DNA of 37,708 bases from Natronomonas aquatica. GTDB lineage: Archaea; Halobacteriota; Halobacteria; Halobacteriales; Haloarculaceae. The DNA lies in NCBI RefSeq assembly GCF_024449025.1, contig NZ_JAHLKM010000021.1, positions 1-37,708 on the forward strand, written 5' to 3'. Of this stretch, positions 11,801-22,069 are shown in pieces (within the stretch, counting starts at the first letter, position 1; every line of letters starts with the position of its first letter). A program made the translations under genes and the position numbers. The notes beneath the pieces were generated by a model that saw only the letters and a list, made by a program, of their open reading frames with translations, did not search any database and was not told the DNA's origin.

Positions 11801-11860
11801 CCGGGGGCGGGGACCACACGAAACAGCACGTTTTTGTCCGGATACGATCGACCTACCCGC

Positions 11861-12568
11861 ATGGCCGAGACTGTCGCGCTCGTCGGGGCGGCCGGCGGTG
11901 TGGGCACGACGCGGACGACGCTTGCGTGTGCGGAACGGCTGGCCCACGGTGGGCACGATACGGCGGTTCTGGACGCCGCCTACGGAACCCAGGGGCTCGC
12001 CGACCGGATCGATGGCGAGATCGCCCCGGACATGACCGAACTGTGTATCGAGGACGAACCGCTGGAGAGCGGCCTGCTCGATCCGGCGATCGAGGGCGGC
12101 GGTCGGCTGGCGGTCTGTCCGGCGCGGGCACCGTTTTCGCGGCTGTCGAGGGCGAAATCACCCGACGCCGCCGAGAACTTCGAGGCGCGGATCGCCGAAG
12201 CGGAACGGCGCTTCGAGTACGTCCTGATCGACACGCCGCCGATCGCGGCCAACCAGGCCGTCGCGGCGGCCACGGGCGCCGGGAGGGTCGCCGTCGTCTG
12301 TGACGCCTCACGGGTCGAATCGGCGCTCCCGCGGACGGCCGACCGGCTGGAGGACGTCGGCGTCGGGACGTTTACCGCCGTCGTCACGCGGCAGGCGGAA
12401 CACCCCGACGCCGACGTCTGTATCCCGGCGCTCGACGCGGAGCCGCCGATACTCGACGACGGGGCACACGGCGCGTTCACAGAGGTGATCGAAGCGACGA
12501 CGGGAACGACTCTCGAGGAGGAGGAACGCGACGGGAAGGGATTCCTCGAAGCGCTGCCGTTCAAATAA
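11861..12568 (+). CDS. MinD/ParA-like protein lacking both Walker lysines
   Basis: A 235-residue SIMIBI-class P-loop relative. The deviant Walker A region reads GAAGGVGTTRTT (residues 9-20), where the MinD/ParA consensus is KGGxGKT: the signature lysine is A11 and the P-loop lysine is T16. The second acidic motif is present as VLIDTPPIA, and VLDAAYGTQGLAD occupies the place of the DxDxxxxL motif. MinD/ParA proteins use ATP-dependent dimerisation on membranes or DNA to position cell structures; this one is probably not a normal ATPase. A TATA-like gtttttg at about 11830-11837 supports ATG 11861. Its 3' end overlaps the convergent 165-residue gene by 8 bp. The C-terminus (GKGFLEALPFK) does not look like a typical MinD membrane helix. 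Confidence 0.8.
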   Translation: MAETVALVGAAGGVGTTRTTLACAERLAHGGHDTAVLDAAYGTQGLADRIDGEIAPDMTELCIEDEPLESGLLDPAIEGGGRLAVCPARAPFSRLSRAKSPDAAENFEARIAEAERRFEYVLIDTPPIAANQAVAAATGAGRVAVVCDASRVESALPRTADRLEDVGVGTFTAVVTRQAEHPDADVCIPALDAEPPILDDGAHGAFTEVIEATTGTTLEEEERDGKGFLEALPFK

Positions 12569-13153: not shown

Positions 13154-13229
13154 TTCACGGACGTCTCGCCGGAGATGACCCCCTCGCCGTCCGTCCTTCA
13201 AGTACCGGCGCGCCGAAGTTCCACACGTG

Positions 13230-14093
13230 ATGAGTGCGACGACACGGCGGACCTGCCCCGAATGCGAGGGCCGCCTCCGGAGCACCGGTATCGAAACGGT
13301 CTGTGACGAGTGTGGGCTCGTCGTCGAGGAGGATCAACTCGACCGCGGCCCGGAGTGGCGGTCCTTCGACGACGACGAGACGAACCCCGAACGGTGTGGC
13401 GCGCCCCTGACGCGCTCCCGCCACGATCGGGGACTCTCGACGGAGATCGGCCGTTCGACCCGGCTCAAAGGGCGGAAGCGCCGACGGGTCGCCCGCATGC
13501 GGAGACAGCACAACCGGACACAGATCGCCTCCAAGCGCGAGCGGAACCTCGTGTATGGCTTCACCGAGATCCGGCGACTGACGGGCCAACTAGAGCTACC
13601 GGGGGCGCTCAAAGAGCAAGCCTGCGTACTGTTTGAATCCGCACAGGAGTCGGACCTGCTTCGGGGACGCTGCATCGAGGGGTTCGCCGCGGCTGCGGTG
13701 TACGCGACCTGTCGGACGATGTCCGTCTCGCGAACGATCGAAGAGGTCGCCGCCGTCGCGAGCGCCGACGAACGGGAACTCAAGGTCGCCTATGGGGCGT
13801 TGAACCGCGAACTCGAACTGTCGACCGGGCCGATCGATCCCACCGAGTATCTGGCGCGGTTCGCATCGGAGCTCGGGATCCCGAACGAGCTCGAACGACG
13901 GGCCAGGGACTTCGCACGGGAGGCCAACGAATCCGGGATCACGACCGGACGGAACCCGAGCGGCGTCGCGGCCGCGTGTCTGTACACGGCGGCCCGGAGC
14001 GCCGACTACGAACTGACTCAAAAGGAGGCCGCCGATATCGCCGACGTCTCGGCGGTCACGGTTCGGAACACCTATCGCGACCTTCGGGACTGA
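13230..14093 (+). CDS. tfb: Transcription initiation factor TFB (TFIIB homologue)
   Basis: A 287-residue general transcription factor that bridges TBP on the promoter and RNA polymerase. It has an N-terminal zinc ribbon (CPEC and CDEC, about residues 10-30), a B-reader/linker region (CGAPLTRSRHDRGLSTEIG), and two cyclin-fold repeats from about residue 95 and residue 195; the second ends with VSAVTVRNTYRDL, the helix-turn-helix that reads the BRE. ATG 13230 is preferred; GTG 13227 directly precedes it in frame and adds one residue. A weak TATA-like ttcaagta lies about 27 nt upstream. Haloarchaea encode several TFBs with differing promoter preference, so this is one paralogue. It diverges from the 165-residue gene across a palindrome. 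Confidence 0.95.
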   Translation: MSATTRRTCPECEGRLRSTGIETVCDECGLVVEEDQLDRGPEWRSFDDDETNPERCGAPLTRSRHDRGLSTEIGRSTRLKGRKRRRVARMRRQHNRTQIASKRERNLVYGFTEIRRLTGQLELPGALKEQACVLFESAQESDLLRGRCIEGFAAAAVYATCRTMSVSRTIEEVAAVASADERELKVAYGALNRELELSTGPIDPTEYLARFASELGIPNELERRARDFAREANESGITTGRNPSGVAAACLYTAARSADYELTQKEAADIADVSAVTVRNTYRDLRD

Positions 14094-14147: not shown

Positions 14148-14696
14148 CTACGACCGATCGGCGCCGGCGAGCGTCGCGAGCGTCGTCGCGGGGATCTCGA
14201 CGTCCTCGAGCCGTTCACACAGCTCGTCCGGCACGATCGATAGCTCCGCCGCGACCCGCCGATCCCGGGCGAGTTCCCCCGCGAGCGTCTCGACCGCGCC
14301 GAGACCGCCGATGTCGTCGATTGCTTCGGTCGCCGTCGGAACGTCGGCGGCGGCGGCGAGGGCTTCGGCGGCCTCGGTGCGCGCTTCGATCCGCTCGATC
14401 CACCGCTCGATCCCGTCCGGGGGCGTCCCTTGCGGCTCGCTGTGGGCGACCTCGAGGGGTCGGTCGGACGTGACGGCGGGTGTCGCGAACCCGACCGCGG
14501 TCGCGCCGGCTTCGATCTCGAGCGTGACGCCGTCGGCGTCCCAGCCGTCGGCGACCGCTCCGTTCGACCGCGGAGGCCAGACGGTTCCGTCGAAGCGCGT
14601 CTCCAGCCGAACCAGACGGGGAGTGTCGGACTCTATAACGGCCGCGACGAACGTCACCGAATCGATCCGATCGGTCCGGACGGACAACCTCGGCAT
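14148..14696 (-). CDS. Hypothetical protein (182 residues), end of mcm-linked gene set
   Basis: From ATG 14696 the acidic protein starts MPRLSVRTDRIDSVTFVAAV and has a beta-rich N-terminal half (RLVRLETRFDGTVWPP, GVTLEIEAGATAVGFATP) and a helical C-terminal half with RWIERIEARTEAAEAL, then alanine/aspartate-rich helices. The in-frame extension to 14840 lacks haloarchaeal bias and is dropped. It starts 73 bp after the stop of the 223-residue gene and faces the same way as mcm, so it may be the last gene of the mcm operon. I recognise no family; the fold suggests a small beta domain plus coiled or helical tail. Confidence 0.75.
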   Translation of the reverse strand: MPRLSVRTDRIDSVTFVAAVIESDTPRLVRLETRFDGTVWPPRSNGAVADGWDADGVTLEIEAGATAVGFATPAVTSDRPLEVAHSEPQGTPPDGIERWIERIEARTEAAEALAAAADVPTATEAIDDIGGLGAVETLAGELARDRRVAAELSIVPDELCERLEDVEIPATTLATLAGADRS

Positions 14697-14769
14697 ACGG
14701 CGATTGGTCGCTCCATGCCTGATAAATCGCGGGTCGGAGAACGAGAAAAAGCGGTCGGGAGAAGGCGGG

Positions 14770-15441
14770 TCAGAGCCGGTAGACCGGAGCTTTGAGCCAC
14801 CGCTCGGCGGAATCCCTGTCGGGAAAGCGTCGACAAGCAAGCGTGATCGGCGTCTCGATCCGGCCGACCCGGATGAGAGCGAGCGCCGTCGAAACCGGGT
14901 CGGCGGCGTCGAACGACGGGGGATCGCGGTTGGGAACCCTCGAGAGCGCGGTCTCGACCGCGGGGGAGACGGCCGCGATCAGTTCCTCGCGAGCCCGCCG
15001 TTCGAGGTTTTCGAGCCGGTCCTCGAGCCGGAGCCTGCGCTCGCGGACGTCCCGGGCTTCCCGAGCCCGATCCCGCGCGTCCGCGAGCGCCTCTTTCGCG
15101 GCGGCGTGTTCGGTTTCGGCCTCCGAGAGCGCCCGGATCGCGTCCCGGTAGTCCGCTTCGATAGCACCGTCGTCGGTCTCCCGGAGCCGCCCCCGAACCG
15201 TCGCGACGCGCTCGCGTTTCGCCTCGAGGTCGGCGGCGGTTTCGGCGACCTGCCGCCGGAGTTCCGCCCGGGGAGGGACCGGCTCCGGATCCGAAAGCGA
15301 CCGCAGTTCGGCCTCGGTCTCGCGGATCGACTCCTCGACGCTCGTCGTGACGCCCAGCGAACGGGCGGTCGCGGCGAGGGCGGCCCGACGGGAGAGAGAC
15401 ATCCCCGGGACGATCACCTTGACGTGTCGATAGAGACTCAT
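14770..15441 (-). CDS. Coiled-coil protein (223 residues) in mcm-linked gene set
   Basis: The N-terminal 30 residues (MSLYRHVKVIVPGMSLSRRAALAATARSLGV) form a short basic domain. About residues 35-155 are almost continuous heptad-like, charge-rich helix (EESIRETEAELRSL, AAKEALADARDRAREARDVR), strongly predicted as a coiled coil by eye. The last 60 residues form a compact segment (SPAVETALSRVP, RIETPITLACRRFPDRDSAERW). Such a design suits a dimeric scaffold or bridging protein. Its ATG overlaps the stop of the 112-residue gene by 4 bp (TCAT at 15438-15441), so translation is coupled. No known family; a replication or chromosome-structuring role is only suggested by the neighbours. Confidence 0.75.
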   Translation of the reverse strand: MSLYRHVKVIVPGMSLSRRAALAATARSLGVTTSVEESIRETEAELRSLSDPEPVPPRAELRRQVAETAADLEAKRERVATVRGRLRETDDGAIEADYRDAIRALSEAETEHAAAKEALADARDRAREARDVRERRLRLEDRLENLERRAREELIAAVSPAVETALSRVPNRDPPSFDAADPVSTALALIRVGRIETPITLACRRFPDRDSAERWLKAPVYRL

Positions 15442-15776
15442 AGCTCCCGTGTCCGCAGTTCCTCCGGGGTCGGATGAGGGCTATCGACAGCGAACTTCGC
15501 GTACGGGGTACTCGGACACTCACGGCACTCGTAAGCCCGGGCGGCCACCCGGACCGCCTCGCGTACCTCCCGGAACTCGTTGAACGGTTCCGTCCGTTCG
15601 ATCTGGACGTCCTCGGGGTGTTTCTCGCGCAGTCGCAACGCGAGAAACGCGCCGTGTTCGGTCGCCTCGAAGAGCGCGGCCCGTCCGAACCCTCGGACGA
15701 CGCTTTCCTCGTGGGTCCGGCAGACGTTCCGGAGGGAGTTCCGTGCGGCCTGCGAGTACGTCACCAACAGCAGCAC
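15438..15776 (-). CDS. Hypothetical protein (112 residues) in mcm-linked gene set
   Basis: A small protein beginning MLLLVTYSQAARNSLRNVCRTHEE. It looks alpha/beta with one ordered core (AALFEATEHGAFLALRLREKHPEDVQIERTE split over strand and helix) and a YECRECPSTPYAKF region in which two cysteines in C-x2-C could bind metal together with a distant Cys or His. That metal idea is an inference. The gene begins 39 bp after the stop of the 84-residue gene and overlaps the coiled-coil gene by 4 bp. I do not recognise the family. The tight spacing with mcm-side genes implies joint expression. Confidence 0.75.
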   Translation of the reverse strand: MLLLVTYSQAARNSLRNVCRTHEESVVRGFGRAALFEATEHGAFLALRLREKHPEDVQIERTEPFNEFREVREAVRVAARAYECRECPSTPYAKFAVDSPHPTPEELRTREL

Positions 15777-15815
15777 GCCCGGTTTTTCACCCGGAGAATA
15801 TATTAAAATTAACGT

Positions 15816-16070
15816 TCAATCGATCGGTTCGACAGTCGGGGCCTCGGCGTCGGTCAGCTCCCGGACCCGCTCGCGGGCTTCCCGTTCCGAGGCCGCGAGC
15901 ACGACCGTCCCGGCGTCCGACCGGTACGCCGAGAGTTCGCCGTCGAACTCGGTCGCGAAGGTCCGGACCGCCGCACGGATCCGGCCTTCGCATCCCTCGA
16001 GGTCGGTTTCGCCGGCCTCGAAATCAGACAGCGCCGACTCGATCCGTCTGAGCGTGGCGATCCGATCCAT
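15816..16070 (-). CDS. Hypothetical protein (84 residues) directly abutting mcm
   Basis: The start codon (plus-strand cat at 16068-16070) touches the mcm TAG stop (16071-16073) without a gap, so translation re-initiation after mcm is likely. The product is acidic with an N-terminal helix pair (DRIATLRRIESALSDFEAG, EGCEGRIRAAVRTFATEF) and a short alpha/beta C-terminal half (ELSAYRSDAGTVVLAAS followed by a helix). Size and layout resemble a small DNA- or protein-binding module, but no family is recognised. Obligatory coupling to mcm makes a role with the helicase plausible. Confidence 0.75.
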   Translation of the reverse strand: MDRIATLRRIESALSDFEAGETDLEGCEGRIRAAVRTFATEFDGELSAYRSDAGTVVLAASEREARERVRELTDAEAPTVEPID

Positions 16071-19000
16071 CTATACCGTCCGGAGGTGGTCGGTCGTCGG
16101 TTCGTAGACGTCACCCTGCCGTCGGAGCTTTTCGATCTCGTGTTCGGCCTGCGATCGCTCCATCCCCATCTCCTCGGCTCGGTCCAGCACGGTCTCGACC
16201 GGTGCGCCCTCGTCGTACTCGGCTTCGATCTCGCTTATCAGCGCCTTGATGTTCTTGATGCGGTCCCGCTGGCTCTTCGAGGTCCCGGTCTCGACGACGT
16301 CGGCGTCGAATTCGCCGGTCTCGGGGTCGACACCGATATCCTGCAGACACGAGCGGACGATATCGATGACCCGTTCGGCGTCCTCGCGTTCGACGGTATC
16401 CGAGAGCCGCATCCGCGCGGAGGCCTCCGAGAGCCGTACCAGCGCCTCCAGTTTCCGGGCGGTCACCGGTACCGGGGCGTCCTCGCCCTGCCCCTTCGAG
16501 CGCAGATCGACGTAAAAATCCCGGATCTGAGCCTTCGCCTCCTCGGACATCATCGGATAGCAGTTCCGCTTCGCGTGGGCGATGTACTTCCGCAACAGTT
16601 CGGCGTCAATAGCCGGTTCGACCTTCTCGGTGACGTTCTCGACCTCCTCCTGGGAGACGTCCGATGTCGTCGTGTTCTCCCGGTGGGTGTGTAACTCGCC
16701 CGCGTAGTTGGTGTTGATGATGTGCTCTGCGAGGTTCGCGTCCTCCTCCTCGTCGGGCTGGTCGGTGACGGTGAAGATCAGATCGAACCGCGAGATGAGC
16801 GCGGGCTCTAAGTCGATCTGTTCGCCGATCGACTCGTACTGGTCGAAGCGGCCGTATTTCGGGTTGGCGGCGCCCAGCAGTGAACACCTGGATTTGAGGG
16901 TAGCGTTGATGCCGGCCTTCGAGATGCTGATAGAGTTATGCAGCACGACACCCTGACTGACAAAGGTGTTCGTCGGCTCGACCGTAACGTCGTAGACCCA
17001 CTCACAGGCGTTTTCGCCATAGTTGGGGACAGTTTCGACGTCCCTGACGCGGTAGTATCGGAGGGATGAATGGTCTTCGGCGTCGTCCGTAGAGTTCTCG
17101 ACGAACACCATCGCGTCCTCGTAGCGCTCGTCGGCGGACTCGACGACAGCCTCGACGAACCGCTCGGTCGAATCGCCCATCACGTAGACCTTCCAGGAAT
17201 CCTCTGCCGTGTCGTGATGGATGCGGGAGCCAACGCCGATCTTCGACAGCGCGTCGGCGTAGTCCCGAGCGAGTCCGTCCGATGCCGTCGAAAAGGCCAT
17301 CGCCTCGCTCTCGACGCCGCCGTCCCCCGCGAACGCGCCGACGAGGAACCGGCGTATCTCCTCTTCGGAGGCCCCGAGCACCCGGTCGGGGATCCGTTTC
17401 TCCCGAGCTGTATGCATGAATCCGGGGAAGTTCCGCTCGAACCACCGGTACAGCTTCGTCGAGACCCACCGTTTCGTTACGGTGCCAGCCGCGTTCGTCG
17501 TATCGGTGCTTTCCATCCCGAACACCGACGCCATGAGCCGGTCCATCCGCTCCAGTAATCGCTCGTCCTGGTTCGAAAATCCGATCTCGTGGGCAGAACC
17601 GGCATAGGAGTGTCCCTCGGCGACGAGGAATCCGAGCACTTCGGCGAGATCCTCGGTCAGTTCCGCCGGCAGATGTACGTCCTTCTCTTTGCCGACGTGC
17701 GGTTCGCCGTCGAGTTCGACGGCCGCACTCGAGTTCGGGAGCTTTCGCGGTGCCGGCACGAACGCCCCCTCCTCGATCGCCCGTGCTTCGACGGTGCCGA
17801 CCTCACCGCCGTCGTCGACGAACATCGGATGTTCGGGCGTTACCGTCACTTTGCGCCCGTTCGAGAAGGTTACCCGGACGAACTCCTCGGGCGCTTCGTG
17901 TCGGCTCACACGATCGATCGGGAGCTTCGTCGTCTCGGTGTCCTCGAGATCGACCGAGTGGATGCCGACATCGTCGACCGGGAGGATTTCACAGTCGACG
18001 CCGTCGGTGACTCGGTCGGGGTTTCGCTGCATCCGTTCGTCGACGAACTCGCCGATATCGACGCGCCGGCCGTCCGACAGGAGGATTTCGGTGTCGGGGT
18101 GATAGGACTGCTGTTCGAGCGCTTCGTGCATTGCCGAGCGATCCTCGGAATTGTGGACGACCATTCCATTCGCGACGAAATTGTGTGTGCCCTCGACAGT
18201 GAGATCATAGACAGAGGACCACTGATCTTCGTTTTCAATACGGGTCGTACCGGCGACTCGGCATAGGGCTGCGGTTTCCGACTCACTCGAAGTACGAAGC
18301 CCATTTTTACTGACAGTCCCGCCATCCGTTTTTATACCCGTATTCGATTCGGGGACGAACACGCGATCGCCTGTTCGGAGTTCCTCAGCCCCCCGTTCAA
18401 ACCGACCGTCTGCCTCGTGGACAAAGAACGGATGATCGGGCGTCGTTATCACTGACTCACCAGATTCAAGCAGCACCTCTACTAATTCCGATGGGGCTTC
18501 GTACTCGTGAACAGCGGTCACCGGCCGATCGATGAGTCGGTTATTTTCCGTCATCGTCCGCACATCGAAATCGACGCCCCGGATCGTCCGCCCGTTTTCG
18601 ATCGACTCGACGGTGCCCTCCTCAAGCGCCTCTTCGGCCAGTTGACTGATTCTTCTAGTCCGGCCATCGGCTAGCTGTACGAGCGTATCACCAGTAACAC
18701 ACCGCATCTTATCCAGTTCGTCAACAGCCGCGATCCCTTGGTCGGCGAGGACGAGCGCACCGGCCTCAAGCGTCCACTGTTGGCCGTCGCCGAAGTCATC
18801 GCGAACAGCAGCTGCCGTGTTGTGGGTAACGATCCCGTTTCCGACGAAATTGTGCGTGTCCGGAACAGTCAGATCGAACACTTCCTTCGATCCGATATCT
18901 TCCGCACGCACGACTTCGTCCCATCGGAGTTCTGCGTCGACGGTTTCGATTGAATCACCGTCCGTGGGGACACCGACATGATCCCCAGCTTCAATTTCGG

Positions 19001-21953
19001 AAATCTCTCGCCACTCGATCCCGTCTGGTCCACACACCAGCACCGGCGTCTGTGTAGACGCTTCGAGTTCCTTCCCGTGCTGCGTCTCGATTCGGCGGCA
19101 CGGCCTCTCGGGCATCCGCCACAGGTGCGAGGAATCGGCGTCGACCACCTCGCCGCGTTCCCGGTCGAATGTGCGAACGCCGATCGCTTTCTCGACGGCG
19201 GTTTCAGTCGAAACCGGATCCGGAAGCTCCGATGTGACGAGTTCGCGGATCGGCTTGAACCCTTTTTCGGTGTGTATCGTCGTGTCGCCGGTCACACAGA
19301 GACCGGCGCTCGAGGACCCTTTCCCGGACGTGTACACGGATCGTGGCGCCAGGTTTCGGACGTACTGGAGGAGTTGCGAATTGTGCGAGATGACGTTGTT
19401 CGAAATATAGCTGTGTGTTCCCTCGACTTCGAGATCATAGACCCACTCGTAATCCGGCTCTAGGGCTTCGATCGATTCGATTCTGTCCCAGGCAATATCA
19501 CCGTCTGCGAGCGTTCTGAGCCGGTCGACATCGTCCTCGGCCGAAAGCGCGGCGTCGAGTCGCTGCAGGACGACCCCCTGTGCATCCATCACTCGACCAC
19601 CGTCGGGGACGGCCTCGTTCCGTTCGTAATAGCTGATCGCGGTCTGGGAGACGTCCATGCCGTCGGCCAACGCTGCCTGTGAGATGTTGAGTTCGTCTCG
19701 GGCGGTGAGGATCGCATCCCACTTTTCATCCGTGACCCGTTCGCGGAGCGCGGAGAGCCGCTCAATCCGCGCCTCGAACGCGTCGAGAACGGTTCGTAGG
19801 CTGGACCGTCCCGGATTTCGGTCCCCACGTTCGTAGTGTTGATACGTCGTTCGGGGAACGCCGCAGTCGAACTGCGAGATCGCGAGGGATTCGCGGATCT
19901 CTCGGAGCGTATCCCCGACGTTCGGGACAACACCGGTGTTCGTGTTCGTTTCGACGTCGTCAAATTCGGCGGCCGAGAGGGCCTTCCGTTCGGTGACGAA
20001 CCCGATCCGGTCGACGTAGCGTTCGAAATCGGCCCCGCCGATTCGGAGCCGGTAGCTGCCGTTGTTTCTGGGGTGCAGTTGACTCTGGATACCGAACGAG
20101 AGAAGCAGGCTTCGCACGTTTTCCAGCAGTTCTTCGCTCATCGATGCGATGGTGATTTCTCGTTGTGTCGCTGAAACCGAACACTCACCGTCGACGTACG
20201 CACGCAAAAATTCGGCCTTTCGTTGTGGTGTCGCCCGAAACACCACGTCAGGCACACACTGCTGAGCCGAACGCTCAAGCAGATTTGGCTCTAACGCTTC
20301 GAGGAACCGGGCGAGTTCCACTGATGAACAAATGACGGTCGAGACGCTCGAATTGGTGTAGTGAGGCTTTCTCTGGTATCGCAGTCCTAAATTCTCGATG
20401 ATACTACAGACATCGTCGAGGATTTCATCGTCCGCGTTTGTGATCGTGAGTTGTCGGCTAGATTCTCCGCCGGAAATATGCCCTTCCCCGACGGTATATC
20501 CGATGAGCCTTGCCAACTGGTCAGTGAGCGTTGTGGGGGCGTTTAGCTCGTTCGGATTCGGTGATTCGGACAGATCGTATTGGACATCGATTGATTCGTC
20601 AGGGGCGTTCGGAATCGTTGCCGGTATTGCGATAAAGTCATCTTCTCTCAGTTTCGATGCAGTGGTCGGGCCTAGTTCACCCTTGGTTTGTGTGAAAAGC
20701 GGATGTGAGGGAGTTACTTCGAGCTCTCGCCCGCTTGCAGTCCGAATGTTGTACATTTGATCCGGGGCCTGTCGCTTCCATAGTTTGGTCGCGGTGCCGG
20801 AAGCAATACGTTGGCCGTCGGTTGTCAGGACCGGTATTGAGCATTTTTGATAAAATCCGTCGTCAACCGGAATAGGGTCCTCAAGGTTCTCTTCGACTAT
20901 TTCTCCGATCTTTTTTTCCGTTCCATTTGACAAAGTCACTTTTGTATCAAATTTCTGGCACTTTCCTGTACCCGGATCACCGATCAGAAGCATATGCAGA
21001 TCCCCTCGCGTCCGAGAGCCGTCGGGCAGGTGTTTGGTCACCCCCGAAAACAGCTGCATGATGATGGCGAGTTTCTCCTGTTCGTAGCCGTAAATGGAGG
21101 GCGCCATCGAGCCGATCATCTTCTCGTAGATGTCCGACTCGTTTGAGAGTTCGATGATCCGCTTTTTGTCCTCGTCGGTGATGTCCATGTCCTCGAACTG
21201 CTCGTCCTCGATCTCGACGGAGAGTCCGTCCATGTAGACGTCGAAGACGGGCGATTTCTCCTGGTTCGACCCCTGCTGGTCGAGATGGAGGATGCCGGTC
21301 ACCCGGACGTGGTCGCCGGCGGTCACCTGCCCCGTGATGTCGTCGTCGATGTGGACGTCGATGCTCTGTGGGGTCTCGCCGCCCCGGAGGCCCTCGGGGG
21401 ACTCCTGGACGCGGAGCTTCTGGGCGTCGACGAACTCCGATTGATCGAAGTTGATCTCGAAGGGGCCCTGCCGTTCACAGCCCTGACACTCGTGGGGCTC
21501 GTAGAACTCCCCGGAGGTCTGTGGGATGCGCGAAAGCGTCCCACAGCGCTGGCATTCGAAGGCCGCCTCGGTGACCTTCGGTCGGACGTCGGTCGCCTTC
21601 CGGATGATGCCCGTCACCTCGACGAGCTGTCCGCGGTGCCGGGCGCGGATCTCCCGGATCCCGGTCGTCCGCTGGAGCCCCCGCACCCGGACGTGGGCCT
21701 GCCCGAGTTTCACGTCGACCGGCAGATCGTAGAGTCTGAGCGCCTCCTCGGCGTACTCGCGCATCTGATCCGGCTGGGCGATGAAGTCGTCGGCGATGTC
21801 GGGATCGAACCGATAGAGATCGTCCCACTCGATGTACAGCGATCGCTTCTCGTTGGGGTACTTCTGGGCGAGTTGGCCGATCTCGTTGCGGTAGTAGTCG
21901 CGGTAGAACTGCTCGAACTTGTCGATGATCTCCGTATCCTCCGCGCGAGCCAT
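16071..21953 (-). CDS. mcm: MCM replicative DNA helicase interrupted by four inteins
   Basis: This 1960-codon gene encodes the hexameric AAA+ helicase that unwinds DNA at the fork. Without inteins the protein has 698 residues, normal for haloarchaeal MCM: N-terminal OB/zinc domain with CQRCGT and CQGCER (residues about 155-180), Walker A GDPGTGK ending at K331, Walker B VDELDKM (about 1077-1083), arginine finger region SRFDLIF after the fourth intein, and a C-terminal winged helix. Inteins occupy residues 332-858, 886-1045, 1085-1268 and 1283-1673, so all splicing events fall in about 80 residues of the ATPase core. ATG 21953 gives MARAEDTEIIDKFEQFYR, a standard MCM start; the longer frame to 22046 is non-coding. 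Without splicing the helicase cannot work, because Walker A is cut directly after its lysine. Confidence 0.96.
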   Translation of the reverse strand: MARAEDTEIIDKFEQFYRDYYRNEIGQLAQKYPNEKRSLYIEWDDLYRFDPDIADDFIAQPDQMREYAEEALRLYDLPVDVKLGQAHVRVRGLQRTTGIREIRARHRGQLVEVTGIIRKATDVRPKVTEAAFECQRCGTLSRIPQTSGEFYEPHECQGCERQGPFEINFDQSEFVDAQKLRVQESPEGLRGGETPQSIDVHIDDDITGQVTAGDHVRVTGILHLDQQGSNQEKSPVFDVYMDGLSVEIEDEQFEDMDITDEDKKRIIELSNESDIYEKMIGSMAPSIYGYEQEKLAIIMQLFSGVTKHLPDGSRTRGDLHMLLIGDPGTGKCQKFDTKVTLSNGTEKKIGEIVEENLEDPIPVDDGFYQKCSIPVLTTDGQRIASGTATKLWKRQAPDQMYNIRTASGRELEVTPSHPLFTQTKGELGPTTASKLREDDFIAIPATIPNAPDESIDVQYDLSESPNPNELNAPTTLTDQLARLIGYTVGEGHISGGESSRQLTITNADDEILDDVCSIIENLGLRYQRKPHYTNSSVSTVICSSVELARFLEALEPNLLERSAQQCVPDVVFRATPQRKAEFLRAYVDGECSVSATQREITIASMSEELLENVRSLLLSFGIQSQLHPRNNGSYRLRIGGADFERYVDRIGFVTERKALSAAEFDDVETNTNTGVVPNVGDTLREIRESLAISQFDCGVPRTTYQHYERGDRNPGRSSLRTVLDAFEARIERLSALRERVTDEKWDAILTARDELNISQAALADGMDVSQTAISYYERNEAVPDGGRVMDAQGVVLQRLDAALSAEDDVDRLRTLADGDIAWDRIESIEALEPDYEWVYDLEVEGTHSYISNNVISHNSQLLQYVRNLAPRSVYTSGKGSSSAGLCVTGDTTIHTEKGFKPIRELVTSELPDPVSTETAVEKAIGVRTFDRERGEVVDADSSHLWRMPERPCRRIETQHGKELEASTQTPVLVCGPDGIEWREISEIEAGDHVGVPTDGDSIETVDAELRWDEVVRAEDIGSKEVFDLTVPDTHNFVGNGIVTHNTAAAVRDDFGDGQQWTLEAGALVLADQGIAAVDELDKMRCVTGDTLVQLADGRTRRISQLAEEALEEGTVESIENGRTIRGVDFDVRTMTENNRLIDRPVTAVHEYEAPSELVEVLLESGESVITTPDHPFFVHEADGRFERGAEELRTGDRVFVPESNTGIKTDGGTVSKNGLRTSSESETAALCRVAGTTRIENEDQWSSVYDLTVEGTHNFVANGMVVHNSEDRSAMHEALEQQSYHPDTEILLSDGRRVDIGEFVDERMQRNPDRVTDGVDCEILPVDDVGIHSVDLEDTETTKLPIDRVSRHEAPEEFVRVTFSNGRKVTVTPEHPMFVDDGGEVGTVEARAIEEGAFVPAPRKLPNSSAAVELDGEPHVGKEKDVHLPAELTEDLAEVLGFLVAEGHSYAGSAHEIGFSNQDERLLERMDRLMASVFGMESTDTTNAAGTVTKRWVSTKLYRWFERNFPGFMHTAREKRIPDRVLGASEEEIRRFLVGAFAGDGGVESEAMAFSTASDGLARDYADALSKIGVGSRIHHDTAEDSWKVYVMGDSTERFVEAVVESADERYEDAMVFVENSTDDAEDHSSLRYYRVRDVETVPNYGENACEWVYDVTVEPTNTFVSQGVVLHNSISISKAGINATLKSRCSLLGAANPKYGRFDQYESIGEQIDLEPALISRFDLIFTVTDQPDEEEDANLAEHIINTNYAGELHTHRENTTTSDVSQEEVENVTEKVEPAIDAELLRKYIAHAKRNCYPMMSEEAKAQIRDFYVDLRSKGQGEDAPVPVTARKLEALVRLSEASARMRLSDTVEREDAERVIDIVRSCLQDIGVDPETGEFDADVVETGTSKSQRDRIKNIKALISEIEAEYDEGAPVETVLDRAEEMGMERSQAEHEIEKLRRQGDVYEPTTDHLRTV
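16935..18107 (-). other. MCM intein 4 (391 residues) with LAGLIDADG endonuclease
   Basis: It starts with Ser1283 (SYHPDTEILLS), a serine instead of cysteine nucleophile, and ends VLHN at 1673 before Ser1674. Block B is VTPEHPMF. Two endonuclease motifs, LAEVLGFLVAEGHS (about residue 1436) and FLVGAFAGDGGVES (about residue 1535), keep their acidic residues, so homing activity is possible. C-terminal block: VYDVTVEPTNTFVSQG. Only 14 extein residues separate it from intein 3. Confidence 0.92.
18150..18701 (-). other. MCM intein 3 (184-residue mini-intein)
   Basis: It starts CVTGDTLVQL at residue 1085, directly after the Walker B-containing DELDKMR, and ends VVHN at 1268 before Ser1269. Block B is canonical (TTPDHPFF) and the C-terminal block is VYDLTVEGTHNFVANG. 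No LAGLIDADG motif remains, though a short low-complexity linker (about 25 residues of Lys/Ser/Thr/Glu) may be the scar of a lost endonuclease. Confidence 0.9.
18819..19298 (-). other. MCM intein 2 (160-residue mini-intein)
   Basis: It starts CVTGDTTIHT at residue 886, after SSSAGL, and ends VTHN at 1045 before Thr1046. Block A, a block B-like STQTPVLV and block F/G (VFDLTVPDTHNFVGNG) are present; there is no endonuclease. The usual TxxH histidine of block B is replaced here (ASTQTPV), which may slow the first splicing step. Confidence 0.9.
19380..20960 (-). other. MCM intein 1 (527 residues), with LAGLIDADG endonuclease and HTH domains
   Basis: It begins with Cys332 directly after the Walker A lysine and ends ISHN before extein Ser859, so the splicing residues (Cys1, His-Asn end, Ser+1) are intact. 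Inside are block B (VTPSHPLF), two LAGLIDADG-type motifs (LARLIGYTVGEGHIS near residue 480 and FLRAYVDGECSVS near residue 585, each with an acidic residue), and then two XRE-like helix-turn-helix segments (about residues 682-718 and 748-782). The C-terminal splicing block is VYDLEVEGTHSYISNN. Its base composition is lower in GC than the flanking exteins, which supports recent mobility. Confidence 0.92.
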
Positions 21954-22069
21954 TTGGGTATCACGTCTTGGCGCGCCACCGAATAAGAACCTTGCCTCCG
22001 GGGAGGGAGCCACCCCGATCTCAGCGGGTGTCGGTGGCGCCGGCACCGGTGCCGGTGTCGGTGCCGACG

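Follow-up and report, generated by a model that had tools for sequence, protein, structure and literature searches.

The small genes that follow mcm in haloarchaea appear to form three aligned units, one of which encodes a candidate partner of the ATPase MinD1

The four small genes that follow mcm, the replicative helicase gene, in the window (the whole stretch of 37,708 nucleotides of Natronomonas aquatica that was analysed) would, on the reading that we favour on balance, form part of a conserved haloarchaeal neighbourhood in which three small transcription units merely stand in line. One of the four, DUF7857, is an obligate neighbour of the cell-organising ATPase MinD1 and is a concrete candidate for the partner of that protein, and DUF7854 alone would be plausible as an accessory of the MCM helicase, though a dispensable one. 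This reading replaces the idea of an earlier note on this DNA that the row as a whole is a replication module, which is more attractive but weaker, and it leaves a single protein of 84 residues to consider in the search for an MCM accessory.

Family assignment was carried out with hmmscan against Pfam, and all four proteins score above the curated gathering cut-offs. The genes of the row and those that flank it are as follows.

16071–22046, minus strand: ORF of the replicative helicase MCM, carrying four inteins and the Pfam domains MCM, MCM_OB, MCM_lid and MCM_N
15816–16070, minus strand: DUF7854 gene, 84 aa (PF25252; E 7e-27, 93.8 bits against a cut-off of 32)
15438–15776, minus strand: DUF7855 gene, 112 aa, GTG start (PF25253; E 2e-54, 183.5 bits against 27)
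14770–15441, minus strand: DUF7856 gene, 223 aa (PF25254; E 8e-54, 183.6 bits against 30.2)
14148–14696, minus strand: DUF7857 gene, 182 aa (PF25256; E 7e-22, 78.8 bits against 27)
13227–14093, plus strand: TFB-family transcription factor gene with Pfam TFIIB repeats and zinc ribbon, convergent to the row and at the far edge of the block

Since these scores lie far above the cut-offs, the four ORFs are genes and not chance reading frames. They have the lengths, order and strand that had been ascribed to them: the DUF7854 ATG at 16070 directly follows the mcm stop TAG (the complement of 16071–16073) with zero gap, and the DUF7855 and DUF7856 genes overlap by exactly 4 bp. The DUF7856 protein of the window lacks about 42 N-terminal positions of the family profile, which it matches from position 43 to 280. 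The proteins were also rightly called uncharacterised, as all four are Pfam families of unknown function. The window proteins are members of these families, which were detected in Haloferax volcanii (one of the named control genomes) as well; the Pfam entries give no function, operon structure or link to MinD1, and a search for the names DUF7854–7857 or HVO_0221 to HVO_0224 found nothing in the collection of papers covered.

Within the mcm ORF (16071–22046) there are four stretches matched by Pfam intein splicing domains, and four intein sites in haloarchaeal MCM have already been published (PMC10643990). The true start of mcm is likely the ATG at 21953 (MARAEDTEI...). Two HTH_3 domains also match in the first MCM intein, at ORF residues 711–818.

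To assess how closely the row is tied to mcm we used a sample of 145 Halobacteria genomes, which are related to each other, so that the counts are not independent events, and in which absence depends on the sensitivity of the Pfam profiles. All 145 have mcm. DUF7854 was detected in 90 of them (89 above the cut-off) and is absent from 55, DUF7855 was detected in 93, DUF7856 in 89 and DUF7857 in 105. All four families are present together in 85 genomes, none of them in 32, DUF7857 only in 19, and nine genomes show other patterns. DUF7855 was not found outside the class, all 24 positive genomes in a 197-genome sample of the phylum lying inside it. Its closest named relatives in an alignment-based scan are Natronomonas records; a single-protein scan of genome contigs with DUF7856 retrieved no relative, whereas the DUF7855 alignment scan did retrieve relatives.

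Gene-order conservation across Halobacteria, which the earlier note had proposed to check and whose absence it said would refute its reading, is extensive. In 84 of 89 carriers DUF7854 is on the strand of mcm and no more than 1 kb downstream of the lid domain of MCM; the median distance, 277 bases, means that the gene abuts the mcm stop. DUF7855 lies within 5 kb of mcm in 86 of 93. The order mcm-7854-7855-7856-7857 is kept over most sampled families. The TFB gene is likewise a conserved neighbour of the row in other genomes, and beyond it lie DUF7858, a gene for a ParA-like protein whose Walker A motif is degenerate, and a HIT gene. In several genomes that lack the row, mcm directly adjoins tfb.

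We compared the upstream 80-mers of each gene over all loci and sought an AT octamer (7/8 AT criterion) between −45 and −15. Of 91 loci, 70 have such an octamer before DUF7855, where shuffled controls that preserved base composition only gave 23.8 ± 3.2; before DUF7857 it is found at 59 of 84, and at 3.0 ± 1.7 in the same kind of shuffles. In this interval it was nearly absent before DUF7854 (2/87) and absent before DUF7856 (0/88) and minD1 (0/67). Octamer positions peak at −31 to −24, which we infer to be where the TATA boxes of haloarchaeal leaderless transcripts lie; in H. volcanii 72% of coding transcripts are leaderless, and TTWT has been proposed as the haloarchaeal motif (PMC4983044). 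In the window itself the corresponding elements are:

15798–15808, minus strand: TATA-like box TTTTAATATAT, at −32 to −22 of DUF7855, within the 39 bp that separate this gene from DUF7854
14722–14727, minus strand: TATA-like box ATTTAT, at −31 to −26 of DUF7857, weak and below the 7/8 AT octamer criterion

Spacing follows the same lines. At 72 of 85 loci DUF7854 overlaps mcm or is separated from it by 0–5 bp, and at 55 of 67 the start of MinD1 overlaps the end of DUF7857 or is at most 5 bp away from it. In rearranged genomes DUF7855 and DUF7856 stay together and DUF7857 stays with MinD1, the breaks falling mostly at the joints between mcm-DUF7854, DUF7855-DUF7856 and DUF7857-minD1. Where DUF7855–7857 have been displaced, DUF7854 remains beside mcm in four of five genomes (G086, G117, G131 and G142); in the exception, G039, it left mcm together with DUF7855–7857 and minD1. 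Taken together, the gene spacing, the TATA-like boxes and the breakpoints suggest three transcription units, namely mcm-DUF7854, DUF7855-DUF7856 and DUF7857-minD1. Co-transcription, which had been supposed from the spacing of the genes, fits the first two of these pairs, but the TATA-like boxes before DUF7855 and DUF7857 argue against its extending to the whole row.

DUF7854 would on this basis be the only gene of the row in the mcm transcription unit, and the presumed shared transcript makes it plausibly co-expressed with the helicase. It is possible, if doubtful, that the functional content of the row ends there, with DUF7854 alone acting as a helicase accessory that is translationally coupled to mcm and modulates MCM, and with the remaining genes unrelated to it. 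The near-zero gap, the rarity of a promoter-like box in front of DUF7854 and its staying with mcm when the downstream units moved all speak for such a role. It is nevertheless missing from the 55 genomes mentioned above, which retain mcm, its phyletic pattern follows that of DUF7855 and DUF7856 more than that of mcm, and a position in an operon can be incidental.

The reading that we prefer gives DUF7857 a role of its own, and most of the evidence for it comes from the ATPase gene that is absent from the window. Most genomes have a ParA/MinD ATPase gene after DUF7857 and on its strand, and Haloferax records have the order mcm-DUF7854-7855-7856-7857-MinD, some of them with an extra lipoprotein-like gene between mcm and DUF7854. 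In the literature on H. volcanii mcm is HVO_0220 and minD1 is HVO_0225. On synteny and this locus numbering we take the ATPase to be MinD1. Its Walker A motif is GGKGGVGK(S/T), in which both signature lysines, K9 and K14, are invariant in 42 aligned representatives; its best NCBIfam match is minD_arch (the archaeal MinD subfamily), at 136 bits, below the cut-off of 201.75 bits. With a MinD1 profile, MinD1 hits score 245–344 bits and are separated by a gap from other MinD paralogues, which reach at most 157 bits. MinD1 is present in 101 genomes. H. volcanii has four MinD paralogues, of which MinD1 was without a described function in 2024 (PMC11621097, PMC11588486), and no clear MinE-equivalent partner is reported to have been identified (PMC11621097).

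In genomes with a Pfam-detected DUF7857, 102 of 102 MinD1 copies (two genomes having two copies each) lie directly downstream of DUF7857 and on its strand. MinD1 also occurs in one further genome, G129, where the gene upstream of the ATPase is a divergent DUF7857 that was recognised by a purpose-built profile and not by Pfam. The pair is also mobile as a unit: sixteen genomes that lack DUF7854–7856 carry it away from mcm, in others it has gone elsewhere while DUF7855 and DUF7856 remain, and at three loci (L159, L161 and L179) it is all that lies between mcm and tfb. The MinD1 tree calls for at least five changes in the location of the pair, three of which are forced by well-supported branches, and the two genes thus appear to have been kept together through about five relocations.

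In ParA/MinD systems the partner protein is normally encoded near the ATPase and is extremely diverse in sequence (PMC10241942). Because DUF7857 is adjacent to MinD1 and moves with it, as such partners are expected to, it is a candidate for the MinD1 partner. The arrangement resembles ParA-ParB, MinD-MinE, McdA-McdB and the MinD2-HVO_0596 pair of Haloferax, in which a small gene likewise stands beside that of a MinD-type ATPase. It differs from these systems in that DUF7857 sits 5' of minD1 and can outlive the ATPase, as in Natronomonas; no similarity to ParB, MinE or McdB was found by Pfam or NCBIfam, and DUF7857 does not carry the positive charge that, along with disorder, has been described for the N-termini of ParA/MinD partners, the median net charge of its first 30 residues being −1. 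In the role of cognate partner, DUF7857 would, by analogy with other ParA/MinD systems, bind MinD1 as an ATP-bound dimer, link that dimer to a surface or cargo and control its cycle of ATP hydrolysis.

Relocated pairs are often convergent to a gene for a protein of about 425 aa (L262:4094-5383, minus strand, and L273:962-2239, plus strand). This protein has a MinD-like N-terminus and a C-terminus that appears KaiC/RecA-like by eye.

DUF7857 occurs without MinD1 in only five genomes of the class sample, and all five belong to the genus of the window (G000, G036, G037, G049 and G099). MinD1 was not found in the window genome, where the best match to its profile scores 129 bits against the 245–344 bits of MinD1. 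In a separate sample of 20 genomes of the genus only one match scored at the level of MinD1 (236 bits), next to a partial DUF7857 in G153; this genome is an incomplete MAG, and its DUF7857-MinD1 pair is of the relocated type. DUF7857 is therefore probably without MinD1 in most of these 20 genomes, and minD1 would have been lost in Natronomonas with DUF7857 persisting as an orphan. Its divergence within the genus, relative to DUF7855 and MCM, is no different from what other genera span. A relaxation of selection on DUF7857 once MinD1 was lost is not supported, since these divergence ratios are ordinary and no decay is visible; the protein must therefore serve some purpose of its own in the genus, which counts against the partner reading. 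A fuller version of our reading, which we put forward only tentatively, is that DUF7857 is the dedicated partner of MinD1, the two making up a positioning system of a type unlike those with ParB, MinE or McdB, that DUF7857 has been repurposed in Natronomonas since its ATPase was lost, and that DUF7854 is an accessory of MCM.

The persistence of the pair also bears on the rather unlikely alternative that the order is neutral, that is, that an ancestral haloarchaeal block running from mcm to the HIT gene has been retained with no functional link across its units, that of DUF7857 and MinD1 included. Such a block would account for conservation that extends to tfb, DUF7858, the second ParA-like gene and the HIT gene, which lie on both strands and do not all belong to one pathway. 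It leaves the pairing of DUF7857 and MinD1 through successive relocations unexplained, however, as well as the finding that no MinD1 stands without DUF7857.

We regard as improbable the proposal of the earlier note that all four proteins form one MCM-linked module of loader, clamp-like bridge or chromosome-attachment factors. What remains of it is the strong synteny with mcm, conserved in order over most sampled families, and the plausibility of DUF7854 as an accessory. DUF7854, DUF7855 and DUF7856 are also mostly lost together and are present or absent nearly always as a set, a pattern that is also compatible with a single functional group, or with adjacent genes having been deleted in one step. 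Against a module of this kind, the row divides into three at two promoter-like breaks, and DUF7857 relocates with MinD1 and not with mcm. As mcm is universal in the sample while 32 genomes have none of the four families and 19 have DUF7857 only, the row can hold no loader, clamp bridge or GINS-type factor that is obligatory. Absence from at least a third of genomes is not expected of a core MCM factor, and DUF7854–7856 are not core helicase factors.

Structure predictions for DUF7855 and DUF7856 point the same way, in that neither predicted fold resembles a loader, a clamp or GINS. AlphaFold2 predicts for DUF7855 (mean pLDDT 96.7) a beta-alpha-beta-beta-alpha-beta, ferredoxin-like arrangement followed by C-terminal helices. 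For DUF7856, modelled from a full-length homologue (mean pLDDT 95.4), it predicts a long antiparallel coiled-coil hairpin with a small base formed by both termini, which bears out the extended coiled coil that had been noticed in the 223-residue protein. The two probably act as a pair. No haloarchaeal GINS23 is known. That one of the row proteins is an unrecognised GINS23 is highly improbable: the position is analogous to that of gins23 beside mcm in crenarchaea and Thermococcales (PMC2643942, PMC7776575), where a small gene is likewise joined to mcm, but no relationship in sequence or fold was found, GINS being absent from the top Foldseek matches of DUF7855 and DUF7856 and profile searches of PDB sequences with each of the four families returning no relatives, the row genes are frequently lost, and a study of 26 haloarchaeal core mcm loci reports no GINS or other known replication gene next to them (PMC3972481).

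Foldseek returned only weak, ferredoxin-like matches for DUF7855, for example VapD and Cas2, and a relationship to either was rejected (E 0.02, TM 0.39–0.46) in favour of a generic ferredoxin-like fold. The matches of DUF7856 to SMC and other coiled coils were also weak (best E 0.014, TM 0.14–0.23), and we take this protein, which has no ATPase, to be a generic coiled coil. DUF7855 is nearly neutral, in contrast to the acidic DUF7854 and DUF7857, and in an otherwise acidic proteome this possibly marks it as a candidate for nucleic-acid binding. The C-x2-C pair that had been pointed out is present in the 112-residue protein; it occurs in one of 91 DUF7855 homologues, the sequence of the window alone, so the pair is no feature of the family, and a zinc ribbon in DUF7855 is not supported.

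Additional genes interrupt the row in some genomes. The joint between DUF7854 and DUF7855 has a gap of 690–910 bases in many of them, which in L213 holds a DUF7504 gene, and an ORF similar to this gene lies between DUF7854 and DUF7855 in L242. The extra lipoprotein-like gene of some Haloferax (L198 and L203; MNRRAYLATAGALFLAGC...), of about 370 codons, lies between mcm and DUF7854 and has no Pfam match. At the other end of the block, the second ParA-like protein is encoded in the window at 11834–12568 on the plus strand, beside DUF7858; its Walker A sequence, AAGGVGTT, is without the P-loop lysine, and many genomes keep its gene at this end of the block.
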